Virus record (IMG/VR): IMGVR_UViG_3300034407_000719
Coordinates: 1-27,769 of that record
Strand: one strand, 5' to 3'
DNA from: a virus
DNA: 27,769 bases
Shown here: piece by piece, positions 17,720 to 22,829 of the stretch
Position numbering within the stretch: position 1 is the stretch's first letter
Layout: each line of letters starts with the position of its first letter
Translations under genes and position numbers: made by a program
Notes under the pieces: model-generated
What the model was told of the DNA's origin: nothing
The model's database searches: none
Seen by the model: only the letters and a program-made list of their open reading frames with translations

Positions 17720-18078
17720 TGAATAAAATAGATCAAGTTTTATTTACTATTAAACACGCATTTGAAACTCATAATGTTTCACAAACCTTCGATGGTAAAT
17801 TTCAAGATTATTTAAGAGCATATATGAATGGGAAAGAAAAACCAGAAGTTAAATGCCGTTTCCCAGCATCGCCAGTTGGAAGAATACCAAAAGAATTAAG
17901 AAAAGAACTATTTAAATATTTAATGAGTTTAAACTCTCAACCGATATCCTCTGGGGAAATAAGTGAGTTAATTAATAAACCAAAATATTTAACTCAAGTT
18001 TACTTAAACAAAATGACTGAAGAAGGAATAATAAACAAACAAAAATCAAGTGGTGGATATTGGGAATACTTTGTTTAA
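17719..18078 (+). CDS. Winged-helix-like small protein
   Basis: A 119-residue protein, last gene of the plus block. An upstream in-frame start at 17671 exists, but the ATG at 17719 overlaps the preceding stop and gives a natural N-terminus (MNKIDQVLFTIKHAFETHNV). The C-terminal half looks like a winged helix: LRKELFKYLMSLNSQPISSG, EISELINKPKYLTQVYLNKM, TEEGIINKQKSSGGYWEY. It may be a transcription regulator. It ends 4 bp inside the opposing endolysin gene. Confidence 0.68.
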   Translation: MNKIDQVLFTIKHAFETHNVSQTFDGKFQDYLRAYMNGKEKPEVKCRFPASPVGRIPKELRKELFKYLMSLNSQPISSGEISELINKPKYLTQVYLNKMTEEGIINKQKSSGGYWEYFV

Positions 18079-18587
18079 TCAAGCATTTCTAATGCAGTTT
18101 CTTTTGTCTCGTTGTTTCGTCTTGTCCAGCCTCTACCAAAATTAACAAAATTATCCAGACTTTCATAGAAATGTTGTCGAGATAAATGCATTTTAGTTAT
18201 AATTTCCAATGGATAAAAGTTATTAACAGCTTGTAAAGTCATCGGCCCAATTCCACCATCAGCTTCAACACCTACAATACGCTGTAATGCTTTAGCTGAT
18301 CTACTCATTCCACTATTAACGCCCCAGTCAAATATGCACCAATCTACACCACTAGGTAAATCATCACACTTTCCTCTGTCCCAATACTCATTTTTATATA
18401 TTGGAGCAACATCTTCTATAGTTAAATCGCGCATTTCTTGCTCTGTTACGTCACGCTCAACCCAATTTTCATAAACCTTTTGTGTAACACCAAGATTAGT
18501 GCGTCCCCCAGCATCGTTTGGGTCGTTCACATATCCACCTTCATGCTTTAATAACATTGTTAAACATCTGTCATAATTCTTGTTCAT
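18075..18587 (-). CDS. Endolysin, GH108 N-acetylmuramidase
   Basis: A 170-residue glycosyl hydrolase family 108 lysozyme. Catalytic glutamate 16 lies in LLKHEGGYVNDPNDAGGRTN, followed by LGVTQKVYE; the rest fits the family: YWDRGKCDDLPSGVDWCIFD, WGVNSGMSRSAKALQ, and the C-terminal peptidoglycan-binding-like segment VEADGGIGPMTLQAVNN with FGRGWTRRNNE. It cleaves peptidoglycan glycan strands at lysis. There is no obvious signal peptide, so export depends on a holin; candidates are the next two genes. It overlaps the next gene by 4 bp and the opposing plus-strand gene by 4 bp. Confidence 0.93.
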   Translation of the reverse strand: MNKNYDRCLTMLLKHEGGYVNDPNDAGGRTNLGVTQKVYENWVERDVTEQEMRDLTIEDVAPIYKNEYWDRGKCDDLPSGVDWCIFDWGVNSGMSRSAKALQRIVGVEADGGIGPMTLQAVNNFYPLEIITKMHLSRQHFYESLDNFVNFGRGWTRRNNETKETALEMLD

Positions 18588-18982
18588 TTTTTGCCTCCGA
18601 AGAATTTTGTTGCAGACCGCACTCCAAAACTAGCACTTACTATAACACCCAGTGTGTATTGATACCAGCTAGGCATTACCTCAAGTGCTAAAAACCCTTG
18701 TGCTACTACGGTGCGCCCCATATCGCCAGCAAACGCTAAGATAAGTGGTATACTAAATAAAATTGTTAGCCATTCGTCCTTCCATGAGTCTTGGCTTCCT
18801 TTAGCCATTATCTTTTCCCATTCGGCTGTGCTTGTAGCGGCACTTACCATAACCTTGGCTTCAGCTTCTGCTTTAGCTTTGGCAATCGCTGTCTTTCCTC
18901 TTTGCGCTTCAGTTTTATTTTCCATATAGCTTGACGCTAAATTACCAACAGGCCCTATTATTGAGCTTAACATTCCAAACAT
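18584..18982 (-). CDS. Holin-like membrane protein
   Basis: A 132-residue protein with a helical, Ala/Lys/Glu-rich N-terminal half (QRGKTAIAKAKAEAEAKVMV) and two to three hydrophobic segments towards the C-terminus (WLTILFSIPLILAFAG, about residues 70-87, and YQYTLGVIVSASFGVRSATK), ending in FFGGKK. The pattern WKDEWLTILFSIPL... MPSWYQYTLGVIVSASFGVR resembles phage holin-like proteins found next to GH108 endolysins. It overlaps the endolysin gene by 4 bp, so it is probably the holin, although the EF-hand membrane protein next to it is another candidate. Confidence 0.65.
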   Translation of the reverse strand: MFGMLSSIIGPVGNLASSYMENKTEAQRGKTAIAKAKAEAEAKVMVSAATSTAEWEKIMAKGSQDSWKDEWLTILFSIPLILAFAGDMGRTVVAQGFLALEVMPSWYQYTLGVIVSASFGVRSATKFFGGKK

Positions 18983-18991
18983 ATTGCTCTC

Positions 18992-19315
18992 CTATTTCAT
19001 CTTTGTTTTAGATAGTGCCGATCCTGTTATGTATGCCGCAACTATTCCAGTATTAGCAATTAAAAAAGTTGATAATACAGGCGATATAGATTCCATTCTT
19101 GCTAATGAAATTATAGGAAGTAATAACAAAGCCACTCCTGCAATACTAACAATCATAGAAGTTAAAGCCATTAACCGTTGAGTGTCTGCCTGTTTATCTT
19201 CATTCTCAAGCCGCACCCACATTGCATGACGATCCATTTCTTCATCTGTAACTATTCCATCACCATCAGCATCAGCCATTGCATATTTGCTGTCTGATTG
19301 TAATTTCTTACTCAT
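18992..19315 (-). CDS. Membrane protein with an EF-hand loop
   Basis: A 107-residue protein. Residues 15-26, DADGDGIVTDEE, are a complete EF-hand calcium loop with ligands at positions 1, 3, 5, 7, 9 and 12 (D15, D17, D19, I21 backbone, T23, E26). After a charged helix come two membrane segments (MIVSIAGVALLLLPIISLA and FLIANTGIVAAYITGSAL). The protein ends SKTKMK. It sits in the lysis region beside the holin-like gene and is coupled to the 16-codon basic peptide gene by an ATGA overlap. A second holin or a calcium-responsive membrane factor are possible; neither is shown. Confidence 0.75.
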   Translation of the reverse strand: MSKKLQSDSKYAMADADGDGIVTDEEMDRHAMWVRLENEDKQADTQRLMALTSMIVSIAGVALLLLPIISLARMESISPVLSTFLIANTGIVAAYITGSALSKTKMK

Positions 19316-19408: not shown

Positions 19409-19984
19409 TCAATTCGACAAAGGATTATCTAATAATTCTTGTAACCGTTGATTTATATTATCTTCTAGTTTCTTCATTGATCGATCAAGTCTATCCTCAG
19501 TCTCTCGTAAATTATTACGAACATCCTTCTCACTCTCCCTGATTAATGCCTCTACCTCTCTTATAGAAACCGTTACATCTTTCTGCACTTGGTTCATTTC
19601 GTTTAAAACACCTTCAAGCACTAAATCAATTGATGCTTGCGTTGCTTTAATACTTATACCAGAAGTATCTATTTTCTTATCACTCTTATCAATTTTGCCT
19701 TCTAACTTATCAATGTAAGCCTCTAGCTTCATTAAATCATCTCGCAAGTTGTTCTTGATATCTCTTGTATAAACAATAGCTGAGTCTAATTTAGATATTA
19801 CCAATTCATTCTCTGCTTTTATCTCATCAATGTTTATTTCTTGTACAATCTCTTTCATATCCATGTAATCTGCATAAAACTCAAAGCCAGCCCATAATGA
19901 GCCAGCCAATGTTGAAATAACACTAATTACAATAAAAAACTTACCACCCGAAAACTTAATTCCACCTACCTCTACCTCAGCCAT
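19409..19984 (-). CDS. Membrane-anchored coiled-coil protein
   Basis: A 191-residue protein with one N-terminal membrane segment (about residues 15-38, GKFFIVISVISTLAGSLWAG) followed by a long charged coiled coil to the end, with repeats such as LEAYIDKLEGKIDKSDKKID and ETEDRLDRSMKKLEDNINQR. The topology (short inside, long periplasmic or cytoplasmic coiled coil) recalls i-spanins, but the coil is longer than usual. It is the last gene of the exported-protein cassette and lies next to the lysis genes, so a role in lysis or in envelope attachment is possible. A good SD (TAGGAGGAAG) precedes the ATG. Confidence 0.72.
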   Translation of the reverse strand: MAEVEVGGIKFSGGKFFIVISVISTLAGSLWAGFEFYADYMDMKEIVQEINIDEIKAENELVISKLDSAIVYTRDIKNNLRDDLMKLEAYIDKLEGKIDKSDKKIDTSGISIKATQASIDLVLEGVLNEMNQVQKDVTVSIREVEALIRESEKDVRNNLRETEDRLDRSMKKLEDNINQRLQELLDNPLSN

Positions 19985-19992
19985 ACTTCCTC

Positions 19993-20403
19993 CTAGTTCT
20001 CAAACGATAACGCTCGAAGCTGTTTAATTTCCTGTTCTAACCTCATAACTTCTAATCGTTTTTTAGTTAATTCTAACTCATATAAACGTGAGCAATCAAT
20101 CCTATTTTTATTTCGTTTACCTAATGGAATAGTAATCTGAGCAAAAAGCCCAATATCACCTGTGCGATGGCCCTCGTTAGCTAAACTGCTTCCTTGAATA
20201 ATTGAAGTCAGCCCAAAAGAGAAATTTGTAGCCGATCCGATGCTATTTGAGCAATCAAGATCGCCAGCTCTAAACTTATCACTTTGGTAATTTATGCTCG
20301 GACTAGGAAGACTTAAACTTAAAGAATTACTTGTTGAGTCTGCGTAACTACCTTGAGCAATTACAATAAACAATATTGCTAAAACTAATCTATTTTGGAG
20401 CAT
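19993..20403 (-). CDS. Exported protein with C-terminal coiled coil
   Basis: A 136-residue protein with an N-terminal signal peptide (MLQNRLVLAILFIVIAQGSY, likely cut near AQGSYA-D). The mature part has FRAGDLDCSNSIGSATNFSF, a THR/Gly-rich beta segment (HRTGDIGLFAQITIPLGKRN), a second Cys in IDCSRLYELEL and a final helix KKRLEVMRLEQEIKQLRAL. The DCSNSIGS...TGDIG...IPLGK...C-RLYELEL pattern is one I recall in several marine phages, always without function. Two Cys suggest a periplasmic disulfide. It starts 19 bp inside the previous gene. Confidence 0.75.
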   Translation of the reverse strand: MLQNRLVLAILFIVIAQGSYADSTSNSLSLSLPSPSINYQSDKFRAGDLDCSNSIGSATNFSFGLTSIIQGSSLANEGHRTGDIGLFAQITIPLGKRNKNRIDCSRLYELELTKKRLEVMRLEQEIKQLRALSFEN

Positions 20404-20771
20404 ATTCTTGACGCAATAACAGTGACCTTTAGATCTTCTTTAAAGTTCTTTGATATAGTGCAAATATAAACAACATATTTTAAGTCTTTCGTTTGGACAT
20501 ATACATCAAACGAAACTGATTTATTATGACCTATTTTTATTATTTTATTAGTAGATGCAAAAGGTACTGGTTCCCAATTATTGTCCCATACCTCAATTTT
20601 ATAATAACTAACATCATCTCGTCTGTTAAATAACTTCATCTTTGTTACAGAAACATCATCAATATATGAAGTAACAAACTTTGGATATGCTGGAGTCATT
20701 TCGTGAGCAAAGCCAAAACTTGCCCAAAAAACAAACACAACACTTAATAACAATTTCACTTTGCAATACAT
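20385..20771 (-). CDS. Exported chaperone-like protein (PapD-like N-domain?)
   Basis: A 128-residue protein with a signal peptide (CKVKLLLSVVFVFWASFGFA, cut before HEM). The mature part is a single beta-rich Ig-like domain: TKMKLFNRRDDVSYYKIEVW, then VPFASTNKIIKIGHNKSVSF, DVYVQTKDLKYVVYICTISK. The order (a K-x-F-N-R-x-D strand, a W-x-P-V-P segment and a conserved basic K-I-I-K-I strand) recalls the N-terminal domain of fimbrial chaperones but is only half their length, so the similarity may be superficial. It follows the pilin-like gene with a 16-bp overlap, the natural order subunit-chaperone. I recall similar proteins in marine phages, with no function assigned. Confidence 0.65.
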   Translation of the reverse strand: MYCKVKLLLSVVFVFWASFGFAHEMTPAYPKFVTSYIDDVSVTKMKLFNRRDDVSYYKIEVWDNNWEPVPFASTNKIIKIGHNKSVSFDVYVQTKDLKYVVYICTISKNFKEDLKVTVIASRICSKID

Positions 20772-21256
20772 TCTGCAACAATTTCAGCAACATAAGACCC
20801 TGCTGGTAACGATTTGTTATAGCCATATAATGCAGTGGAGCTAACAGTAAACCAAGTTGATCCAGCCAAAGTCATATCGAAGGTAGTTACATTTGATGGA
20901 CTAATTACTTTTGCGGTTTCATAAGCACTCATTTCCGTTACCGAAACCTGACCAACAACTGTTGACCCACTCCACACAACTGTATCACTTAAAGTCGGAG
21001 AAGAACTGAACGAAATCGGATGCGTAAAGCTAGTCTTATAGAAGTTAGCTTGAGCAATATCTACACGGATGGATGCGTGAGTACCTCCACTAGCTGGTAA
21101 AGTGTCGAGCTTGTTTGGTAATGGGTTTCCGTAAACACCTTGAGTTTCAGTCCAGATAGAACATTTTGCCTGTACTTGTCCATTTATAGGGCTGTTTACT
21201 GCAAGAGCTGGAGAAGCGAAAATCAAAGAGCTTATAATTACAAGTTTATTAAACAT
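20756..21256 (-). CDS. Exported pilin/spore-coat-U-like subunit
   Basis: A 166-residue secreted protein with a signal peptide (MFNKLVIISSLIFASPALAV, cut after ALA). The mature part is beta-rich: a first Cys in VQAKCSIWTETQGVYGNPLP, an IRVDIAQANFYKTSFTHPIS strand region, DTVVWSGSTVVGQVSV, FDMTLAGSTWFTVSSTALYG, and the C-terminal strand SYVAEIVAECIAK with a second Cys. Two Cys and the strand order resemble DUF4402/pilin-like subunits that polymerise by donor-strand exchange, but no usher is encoded here. A strong SD (GAAGGA) precedes the ATG; a repeat pair ends 19 bp upstream. Confidence 0.72.
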   Translation of the reverse strand: MFNKLVIISSLIFASPALAVNSPINGQVQAKCSIWTETQGVYGNPLPNKLDTLPASGGTHASIRVDIAQANFYKTSFTHPISFSSSPTLSDTVVWSGSTVVGQVSVTEMSAYETAKVISPSNVTTFDMTLAGSTWFTVSSTALYGYNKSLPAGSYVAEIVAECIAK

Positions 21257-21274: not shown

Positions 21275-21322
21275 CCTAGAGGGGTTTTTGGTTCATTATT
21301 CCCTAGAGGGGTTTTTGGTTCA
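21275..21322 (-). repeat. Repeat pair 3 of the TGAACCAAAAACCCC family
   Basis: Two identical copies, at 21275-21295 and 21302-21322, 27 bp apart, read on the minus strand as TGAACCAAAAACCCC followed by TCTAGG. The inner edge is 19 bp before the ATG of the pilin-like gene. The outer copy's ATG lies directly after the TAA of the upstream gene. The EPKTPLG frame is open across both copies but has no canonical start. Confidence 0.92.
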
Positions 21323-21323
21323 T

Positions 21324-22214
21324 TTATTTGTATTGCGACCTAACTATCTTTCTATGGTTAGCATCATTTCGTAAATTTCTCAATGCCTTGCGATTATCTT
21401 GAATATTACTGTCATTTAATTGAATTGTATCCTTATATATACCACCATCAATCTTTACATCATAATAAGAGTTTATTTTCCCTACAGCCGCCATTTCTGT
21501 AAGCATATTTAGTTGTTGAGTTGGGTCAGCTATTTTTTCTACTGCACCTGAGATTGCAAGAACCTTCTCCATTGTAACCTCTTTCTTTTCCTCCTCTTCT
21601 TTAGCTTCCTTTAGTTTCTCTTCCTTCTGTTTTTCAGCCTTACGTTCTAGCTGAAACTTTACCCATTCATCATAATATGGATCATTTACATTAGGGTCAG
21701 TATCAAGCAGATTATTATTTAACAAATATTGATATAAGTTTGCTTGGAAATCTGGGCAACTAGGGTCTGACAATGGAATAAAACAAGGGTCGAACGAGTA
21801 ATGATAATTAACTGATACGTCACTTAAAGTGCCATCCCCAGTAACACTTATTGAACCATCTCCCCATAATGGCAGTAAAGATGGTGTTACAGGGTCGTAG
21901 CCAATCTTAGTTGATCCAGCAATTCCATTCCAATTATCAACATTTTCATAAATGTTTCCTGTGCCATCAGCGTTCTTGTTTTTAATAATTACAGATCCAT
22001 TAGTGCTTTCATTCTTATCTAGTGTGTATTGATGAAAGACACCTTTTACTGTTAACCCTGTTTGGCTGGGGAATAGATTTAACATCTGCCAAATATAAGC
22101 ATCTTTAGCCGCATTATTAGTGCTGGAGTTTACTACTTCAGATGAGGAGGAGTAAGGAAATAAGCAAACCACCAATCCCAATGACACCTTTTGCAGTATT
22201 TTTATCATCTTCAT
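21324..22214 (-). CDS. Exported protein with charged C-terminal helix
   Basis: The frame opens at 22304, but the N-terminus of a signal peptide (MKMIKILQKVSLGLVVCLFP, then YSSSS) begins at the ATG at 22214 (or 22208), which I choose; 296 residues. The mature part has a beta-rich first half (GDGSISVTGDGTLSDVSVNY), a PCFIPLSDPSCPDF segment with two Cys, DPYYDEWVKFQLERKAEKQK, a Lys/Glu-rich coil, and a C-terminal domain (TQQLNMLTEMAAVGKINSYY). I recall similar proteins with the YDEWVKFQLERKxE pattern in marine phages; function unknown. It overlaps the end of the PPPSA-motif gene by 77 bp. Confidence 0.72.
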   Translation of the reverse strand: MKMIKILQKVSLGLVVCLFPYSSSSEVVNSSTNNAAKDAYIWQMLNLFPSQTGLTVKGVFHQYTLDKNESTNGSVIIKNKNADGTGNIYENVDNWNGIAGSTKIGYDPVTPSLLPLWGDGSISVTGDGTLSDVSVNYHYSFDPCFIPLSDPSCPDFQANLYQYLLNNNLLDTDPNVNDPYYDEWVKFQLERKAEKQKEEKLKEAKEEEEKKEVTMEKVLAISGAVEKIADPTQQLNMLTEMAAVGKINSYYDVKIDGGIYKDTIQLNDSNIQDNRKALRNLRNDANHRKIVRSQYK

Positions 22215-22719
22215 CCCATTTCTTTTTACCATTTGCTTTATAGTCAGGCCATCTTTCTGGTGTTGCTTCCCACTTCTGTAATGCCGCCGCACCAACAAGA
22301 CCATCTATTGGACAGGGCGTTCCAGCATCTTTCATGCTTTGCCATATCGTTTTATCGGTACACATTATGCTAACCGCTGAAACTTTCATCCCCATATCAA
22401 ACATTACTTTAGCCTTTTTTAATAGAACGCAATTAGGCTCTGTAAATGTCTTTCCAGCACTAATACCTAGTATTTGCGTTTGAACTGCACCAGCAACTCC
22501 TACCGTACATAAATCAGTATTAGATGTACTAATTGAGGGTGAAATAGCAGATGGTGGAGGAGATTTTATAGTTGAGTTTGTTGTCGAGTTTACTGTAGAG
22601 TCTGTTGTGTTATCTGTTACTATTGTCTCTGCACTCGTTATAGACGCATAAAACAAGTAACCAACCATAATAAATGCTATAATAAAACAGATTAAAGCAG
22701 TTTTCTTCTTAACTCTCAT
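22138..22719 (-). CDS. Membrane-anchored Ser/Thr-rich protein with SPPPSAI motif
   Basis: A 193-residue protein starting at the ATG at 22719, preceded by GGGGAGGAAA (an ATG 6 codons upstream is less likely). It has an N-terminal membrane segment (ALICFIIAFIMVGYLFYAS), a Thr/Ser/Asn-rich linker (TDSTVNSTTNSTIK), the motif SPPPSAISPSI, then four Cys (TDLC, EPNC, SIMC, GTPC) in a conserved-looking domain CTVGVAGAVQTQILGISAGK, and a C-terminal membrane segment (GVIGIGGLLISLLLLI). I recall the SPPPSAIAPS...DLCxVGVSGAVQTQILG pattern in marine T4-like and other marine phages, where it is uncharacterised. A virion-associated or envelope role is inference. Confidence 0.75.
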   Translation of the reverse strand: MRVKKKTALICFIIAFIMVGYLFYASITSAETIVTDNTTDSTVNSTTNSTIKSPPPSAISPSISTSNTDLCTVGVAGAVQTQILGISAGKTFTEPNCVLLKKAKVMFDMGMKVSAVSIMCTDKTIWQSMKDAGTPCPIDGLVGAAALQKWEATPERWPDYKANGKKKWDEDDKNTAKGVIGIGGLLISLLLLI

Positions 22720-22829
22720 TTTCCTCCCCATGAACAAAAGTTATCTAAAGTAAGAACTTTGCAATTCAAATTCTCACAGCCAGATAAAAACACTGCCAAT
22801 ATAAGAAAAATAACATAGTTTTTATACAT
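22716..22829 (-). CDS. Tiny lipoprotein (lipobox LSGC)
   Basis: A 37-codon frame (begins MYKNYVIFLILAVFLSGCEN) whose first 17 residues form a signal peptide ending in the lipobox LSGC, with Cys 18 as the expected lipidated residue. The mature peptide is only 20 residues (ends NFCSWGGK) and has two further Cys. It overlaps the next gene by 4 bp (ATGA). The SD is weak, so coupling to the upstream membrane peptide gene is likely. It might be an outer-membrane-anchored accessory of the cassette or an entry-exclusion factor. Confidence 0.62.
   Translation of the reverse strand: MYKNYVIFLILAVFLSGCENLNCKVLTLDNFCSWGGK

Follow-up and report, generated by a model that had tools for sequence, protein, structure and literature searches.

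The stretch of DNA analyzed here (hereafter the window) is the 27,769-bp IMG/VR virus record IMGVR_UViG_3300034407_000719, which is probably a fragment. On its minus strand, six genes follow one another with small gaps or none, in the order p199, p326, pilin-like subunit, half-length chaperone-like protein (hereafter half-chaperone), p136 and p191. These genes belong to a conserved late envelope cassette of five to seven genes, flanked in the window by gpJ and a tail-fiber gene on one side, and by p107, p132 and a GH108 lysozyme gene on the other. The features of the locus are as follows.

22138..22737, minus strand: p199, exported and Cys-rich, with an S/T/N-rich linker and a C-terminal hydrophobic anchor; opens the cassette
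21324..22304, minus strand: p326, exported and beta-rich, with an acidic linker and a conserved C-terminus; adjoins the subunit gene on its upstream side
20756..21256, minus strand: pilin-like subunit of 166 aa, with a signal peptide (residues 1-19) and two Cys that are invariant
21164..21199, minus strand: candidate donor strand, subunit residues 20-31 (VNSPINGQVQAK), at the mature N-terminus and ending right before C32
20759..20800, minus strand: subunit C-terminal strand, residues 153-166 (GSYVAEIVAECIAK), with an invariant Gly 14th from the end; closes the protein
20385..20771, minus strand: chaperone-like protein of half length (one domain, 128 aa), with His23 at the mature N-terminus
20394..20426, minus strand: half-chaperone last strand, residues 116-126 (VTVIASRICSK), from DSSP of the model; G1 equivalent, with C124 beside C104 across the hairpin
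19993..20403, minus strand: p136, exported, with an amphipathic beta-hairpin-like segment and a coiled coil at the C-terminus; completes the minimal unit as its third member
19409..19984, minus strand: p191, an N-terminal membrane helix followed by a long periplasmic coiled coil; closes the cassette
18992..19315, minus strand: p107, an EF-hand-like DxDxDGxxTxEE segment and two membrane helices; often 3' of the cassette
18075..18982, minus strand: lysis neighbors, comprising the small membrane protein p132 (18584-18982) and the GH108 lysozyme (18075-18587)

Several further observations concern the members and surroundings of the cassette. A tandem 23-bp repeat, CCTAGAGGGGTTTTTGGTTCATT, separates the p326 and subunit genes, at 21275-21297 and 21302-21324, the two copies lying 27 bp apart. 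The window p326 carries a single copy of a CxxxPLYDxxCPGYxxAY element (CFIPLSDPSCPDF), and the p326 homologs of T4-like records, which are positive for gp23, and of related marine records have grown by many such repeats (L127:6443-8536, L118:4026-5606 and L119:6314-8326). In many marine phages, p107 is again found next to p191 and to lysis genes. At two other loci (L009:757-1548 and L186:5129-5458), the gene just upstream of the cassette encodes an exported, porin-like protein of beta-barrel-looking sequence with a terminal Phe and no PHROG match, which could be an outer-membrane partner. Searches against antiphage libraries returned coiled-coil noise for p191 and nothing else.

Alignment of 101 subunit sequences revealed a signal peptide with an AxA cleavage site, in which A17 and A19 (positions -3 and -1) are each conserved at 94%, and two cysteines, C32 and C163, conserved at 100%. 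Within the candidate donor segment, I24 and G26 are invariant and V28 is conserved at 95%, with variable residues in between. Alternating hydrophobic residues at the N-terminus are the mark of the donor strand in CsuA/B and in classical pilins (PMC4654587). The motif [IVLFM]xGx[VIL]x2-4Cx[IVL] is present at the N-terminus of FimA, FimI, FimF and FimG of E. coli K-12 and in 49/49 non-redundant phage subunits, with FimG (VNGKVVAKPCTV) and the window subunit (INGQVQAKCSI) following the same arrangement. The pattern was composed with the Fim sequences already seen, the invariant columns I24, G26, C32 and G153, and the nearly invariant V28, having been found earlier; it matched 20 of 24,500 shuffled sequences and, among 606 exported-like background proteins, one in its strict and four in its relaxed form, matches that are probably Vibrio phage subunits themselves, since the background set took in loci of the Vibrio relatives. 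At the opposite end, a Gly at position 14 from the C-terminus is shared by 49/49 representatives, seven Vibrio phage relatives and E. coli FimA, FimI, FimF, FimG and FimH. The penultimate aromatic residue of the classical beta-zipper motif is not present in the subunit, where A165 is conserved at 100%.

The AlphaFold2 model of the subunit, built on a 49-sequence alignment, has a mean pLDDT of 90.9 and an Ig-like fold in which the last strand (160-165) is the end of the chain. In this monomer model, residues 20-31 form no strand and stay unpaired. A bond between C32 and C163, if formed, could narrow the putative subunit groove. Foldseek comparison with the PDB places the PapGII pilin domain first (E 8.3e-4), and the top 50 matches also include donor-strand filaments, namely FimF, FimG, CfaB, Pyrodictium cannulae and Pyrobaculum bundling pili. 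The list is nevertheless mixed, with beta sandwiches other than pilins (SdrE and AP2 mu2, for example) scoring nearly as well. Pfam pilin families, PF00419 and PF05229 among them, gave no match for the window, marine or Vibrio subunits, and profile comparison of the same members with SCPU was not significant.

In the marine family, the half-chaperone signal peptide ends in A22 (93%), the next residue, His23, is invariant, and two cysteines, C104 and C124, are conserved at 100%. The protein consists of one Ig-like domain only, as do 24 diverse relatives, so that none of them has the two-domain architecture of a periplasmic chaperone. Its AlphaFold2 model (25-sequence alignment, mean pLDDT 87.1) comprises one Ig-like beta domain, which closes with a hairpin of two strands (102-111, 116-126) bearing both cysteines, and the last of these strands may act as a donor strand. 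The best Foldseek match in the PDB is SfaE (E 5.8e-4), followed by FaeE, Caf1M, FimC and MSP domains, with probabilities of 0.99-1.00 and TM-scores of 0.4-0.6 for the chaperones. The half-chaperone model thus has the fold of PapD domain 1, at the level of fold only: no sequence or profile match to PapD_N (PF00345) was obtained, the first strand shows no conserved Arg equivalent to Arg8, and position 126 in the last strand (Lys in 87%, Arg in 12%) is a candidate counterpart of the carboxylate-anchor Lys112. Global alignments of half-chaperones with FimC gave Z values of -0.2 to 2.0, at most weakly above shuffled sequences, and homology to FimC is therefore not claimed. The codon for His23 lies at 20703-20705; the residue opens an H-[EQ]-[MFL]-x-P sequence in all marine relatives and is also found in Erwinia and Klebsiella phage relatives, but not in those of Vibrio phages.

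The initial annotation had described, from sequence inspection, a pilin-like exported subunit with two cysteines beside an exported, one-domain chaperone-like partner, and had named folds that are not Ig-like, or a subunit that completes its own fold, as grounds for abandoning the idea. The description holds for both proteins. Both predicted folds are Ig-like, with a pilin and a chaperone as their respective best matches, and the conserved N-terminal segment is left free in the predicted subunit. Since TM-scores across the pair are moderate (0.3-0.6), this structural support amounts to a fold-level resemblance, not an identification. The modest scores, the many other beta sandwiches matched and the silence of bacterial family profiles would also fit two unrelated Ig-like exported proteins, for instance a carbohydrate- or metal-binding pair, that recall pilins and chaperones through the general beta-sandwich fold. 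We consider this quite improbable, because pilin motifs at both termini, a chaperone-matching neighbor and obligate linkage would all have to coincide. A metal-binding variant, in which the half-chaperone would be a histidine-brace copper protein (as in LPMO or CopC), is not supported, since His23 is invariant in the marine family but a second conserved His is absent.

The two genes are invariably linked. A subunit gene is followed by a half-chaperone gene in all 171 loci with enough downstream sequence, and the reverse holds for 162/162 loci. The open reading frames overlap in the window by exactly 16 bp (20756-20771), and 128 of 175 homologous pairs retain this overlap. Patterns derived from the subunit, the half-chaperone and p199 identified 129 viral loci, 108 of which harbor both genes in the same order, and the recurrence of this order in more than 100 viral loci indicates that the pairing is not due to chance. 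An alignment-based scan located the subunit in at least 569 viral contigs, and 306 viral contigs were confirmed in the scan for the half-chaperone. Across 84,980 bacterial and archaeal genomes, the subunit was detected only in two contigs of a single metagenome-assembled Rhodobacteraceae bin, one of which also encodes the half-chaperone; both are probably phage contigs. The pair thus constitutes a real, conserved and phage-specific module. It is found in T4-like genomes (gp23 being present in records of 201 kb and 166 kb) and in lambda-like siphoviruses whose tail protein is of the gpJ type, and some of the records that carry it look podovirus-like from their neighboring genes.

The distribution of p199 is far broader than that of the pilin pair. 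Homologs occur, without the rest of the cassette, in cultured pelagiphages, roseophages and the N4-like phage JWAlpha, and we read the larger exported, beta-rich protein that follows p199 in pelagiphages as a putative counterpart of p326. Other routes to relatives of the pair were unproductive: a structure search of BFVD returned no viral protein at E ≤ 0.001, PDB sequence searches with profiles of both proteins or with single Vibrio phage proteins gave only noise, and direct BLAST of the window and marine subunits and half-chaperones against cultured phages yielded nothing.

Cultured relatives were reached solely through p136 as query, which led to Vibrio phages encoding the subunit, the half-chaperone and p136 (Ceto, pVp-1, which is T5-like, vB_VhaS-tm, 1.205.O, K478b, D80 and 264E42.1). 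Profile comparison with the window proteins supports these as true relatives of the subunit (96.5%, E 8e-10) and of the half-chaperone (88.4%, E 3e-6). Subunit and half-chaperone are each present in 179 phage records, all from Vibrio, whereas p136 is present in 181 Vibrio records and also in Erwinia and Klebsiella phages. The three proteins correspond to PHROG families 25895, 25455 and 37374, respectively, which have no assigned function. p199, p326 and p191 were not found in the Vibrio phage stretches that were read, and the occurrence of the trio alone defines subunit, half-chaperone and p136 as the minimal unit; this three-gene form is present in Ceto, Thalassa and Achelous, phages whose hosts are laboratory strains (V. 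harveyi BAA-1116 and V. campbellii BB120). The pair had originally been put forward as a unit in itself. Its linkage is indeed constant, but it does not stand isolated, being embedded in the larger cassette or, in its smallest form, accompanied by p136. An N-terminal LxLxLP element of p136, considered as a general donor strand, was dropped because the Vibrio p136 proteins lack it.

In the Klebsiella jumbo phage Eowyn (L279:3170-4423) and the Erwinia phage pEp_SNUABM_01 (L278:3164-4426), a half-chaperone-like protein and p136 are accompanied, in changed order, by a different exported two-Cys protein. This trio includes a related half-chaperone (81.8%, E 1e-5), but its third protein shows no detectable relationship to the subunit; the arrangement gives the impression of one and the same pair attending to a different client.

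The large late genes directly upstream of the Vibrio trio are taken as tail-fiber genes. This position, shared by the Vibrio phages examined among the 179 records with the pair and paralleled in the window by the location downstream of gpJ and the fiber gene, could mean that the exported subunit joins the tail fibers after cell burst and becomes part of the virion. Such a role is disfavored by the signal peptides, which together with the paired cysteines of all members point to the periplasm, whereas tails are assembled in the cytoplasm; the neighbors, furthermore, vary in podovirus and T4-like records, and we deem incorporation into the virion very unlikely. Much the same holds for a part in lysis, in which the cassette would break or fuse the envelope in the way of a spanin. 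The cassette does adjoin holin-like and lysozyme genes, p191 combines a membrane anchor with a periplasmic coiled coil, and no Rz/Rz1 pair was recognized in the window. In a 101-kb record, however, an Rz/Rz1-like pair followed by a lysozyme gene (L106:4634-5316) directly precedes a complete cassette, and the Vibrio form dispenses with p191. The presence of a spanin-like pair beside an intact cassette and of a unit without p191 argues against a lysis function, to which we give little credence.

The absence of an usher, already remarked upon in the initial annotation, was substantiated on a wider sample. No usher (PF00577) was found in the window, in 24 viral records or in nine cultured phage genomes (33 viral records besides the window), and no TcfC-type usher (PF16967) in 19 records. 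With usher, two-domain chaperone and family profiles all sought and none of them found, the module is not a member of the chaperone-usher family; its two proteins resemble pilin and chaperone by fold and motif, not by sequence family. Our literature searches found no relevant description of phage-encoded pili, fimbriae or pilin chaperones, and the pilin-chaperone reading of the three PHROG families is new here.

We propose, with a probability of about one half, that these phages encode a donor-strand pilin-like subunit and a dedicated one-domain chaperone that act without an usher at the host envelope late in infection, making a short fiber or a capped complex. Sec would export both proteins to the host periplasm late in infection, where the last beta strand of the half-chaperone would complete the subunit's putatively incomplete Ig fold. 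In a transfer step, the chaperone would then be displaced by the subunit's N-terminal strand (IxGxV) and by the strands of its partners, and the resulting short fiber or capped complex would be held at the envelope by p136, joined in marine phages by p199, p326 and p191. p136 is the candidate anchor because Vibrio phages retain it together with the pair. An usher would not be involved at any step. FimA rods form in vitro without an usher, slowly and with defects (PMC11001860), and usher-less assembly is hence possible. The late position, close to fiber genes and to lysis genes, points to a role at the dying cell's surface, such as receptor masking or adhesion, and we infer that the most likely purpose is to alter the infected-cell surface so that the cell or its debris stops binding phage, or so that cells adhere.

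A variant that involves no polymer deserves separate consideration. The subunit-chaperone pair, with p136, may form a single capped outer-membrane complex that blocks the phage receptor, providing superinfection exclusion or preventing re-adsorption in the manner of lambdoid Cor and T5 Llp. An usher would be unnecessary, the carriers include T4-like, lambda-like and podovirus-like phages, and the sites, which in the window lie between tail-fiber/host-specificity and lysis genes and in Vibrio phages directly 3' of tail-fiber genes, are typical of surface-modifying accessory genes. The conserved donor-like N-terminus of the subunit is left unexplained, however, and we hold receptor blocking without a polymer to be possible but rather unlikely. 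The suggestion that the pair is a decoy jamming host pili, raised in the initial annotation, found no direct evidence, and it does not account for the constant company of a private chaperone and p136.

Together, the pilin-like subunit and its chaperone-like partner suggest that phages make their own simple fiber or plug on the infected cell. Taken further, and more tentatively, several kinds of tailed phages might build an usher-less donor-strand fiber in which the one-domain chaperone loads the subunit and p136 substitutes for the usher as anchor or exit, the whole being a portable three-gene system to which p199, p326 and p191 are added in marine phages; this bolder form of the proposal is a speculative one that we would not yet favor. 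If a donor-strand pair is indeed at work, its stripped-down version, standard in marine and Vibrio phages that number at least in the hundreds, would show the minimal working set of such a system, offers a function for three PHROG families that have none, and points to an unrecognized phage-host step at the cell surface. The idea can be tested at once, given that the cultured phages Ceto, Thalassa and Achelous carry the three-gene form.

Chaperone-assisted donor-strand subunits are known from bacterial pili, which rely on an usher and a chaperone of two domains. Assembly by donor strands in the absence of an outer-membrane usher is a feature of the archaeal Pyrobaculum bundling pili and Pyrodictium cannulae, which match the subunit in fold but show no sequence similarity to it, and for which we know of no dedicated chaperone. 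Rz/Rz1 spanins consist of an inner-membrane coiled-coil protein and an outer-membrane lipoprotein, and the subunit and half-chaperone are neither. Caf1M, the FGL-type chaperone that acts with Caf1, is among the best fold matches of the half-chaperone, and FGL chaperones have two cysteines placed to join their last two strands, as does the half-chaperone; unlike Caf1M, the half-chaperone lacks a second domain, has a short loop between the last two strands and shows no sequence match. Among archaic and alternative systems (Csu, CFA/I), CfaB is a fold match of the subunit, whose C-terminal YG...PAGxYxA resembles SCPU pilins by eye. The chaperones of these systems have a two-domain carboxylate anchor (PMC4654587), which is impossible in the phage module, where the chaperone has one domain. 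With respect to type 1 pili (FimA/F/G with FimC), the phage module differs in being phage-encoded, in having no usher and a one-domain chaperone, and in giving no sequence-profile match. Its donor segment of about 12 residues is short in comparison with the classical extension, and the second Cys, which lies in strand B of Fim subunits, is located in the last strand, which also lacks the penultimate aromatic. The likeness to type 1 pili extends nonetheless to an exported two-Cys subunit with an N-terminal IxGxV...CxI, a Gly 14th from the C-terminus and a last strand that ends the protein, and to a partner folded like domain 1 of the chaperone.
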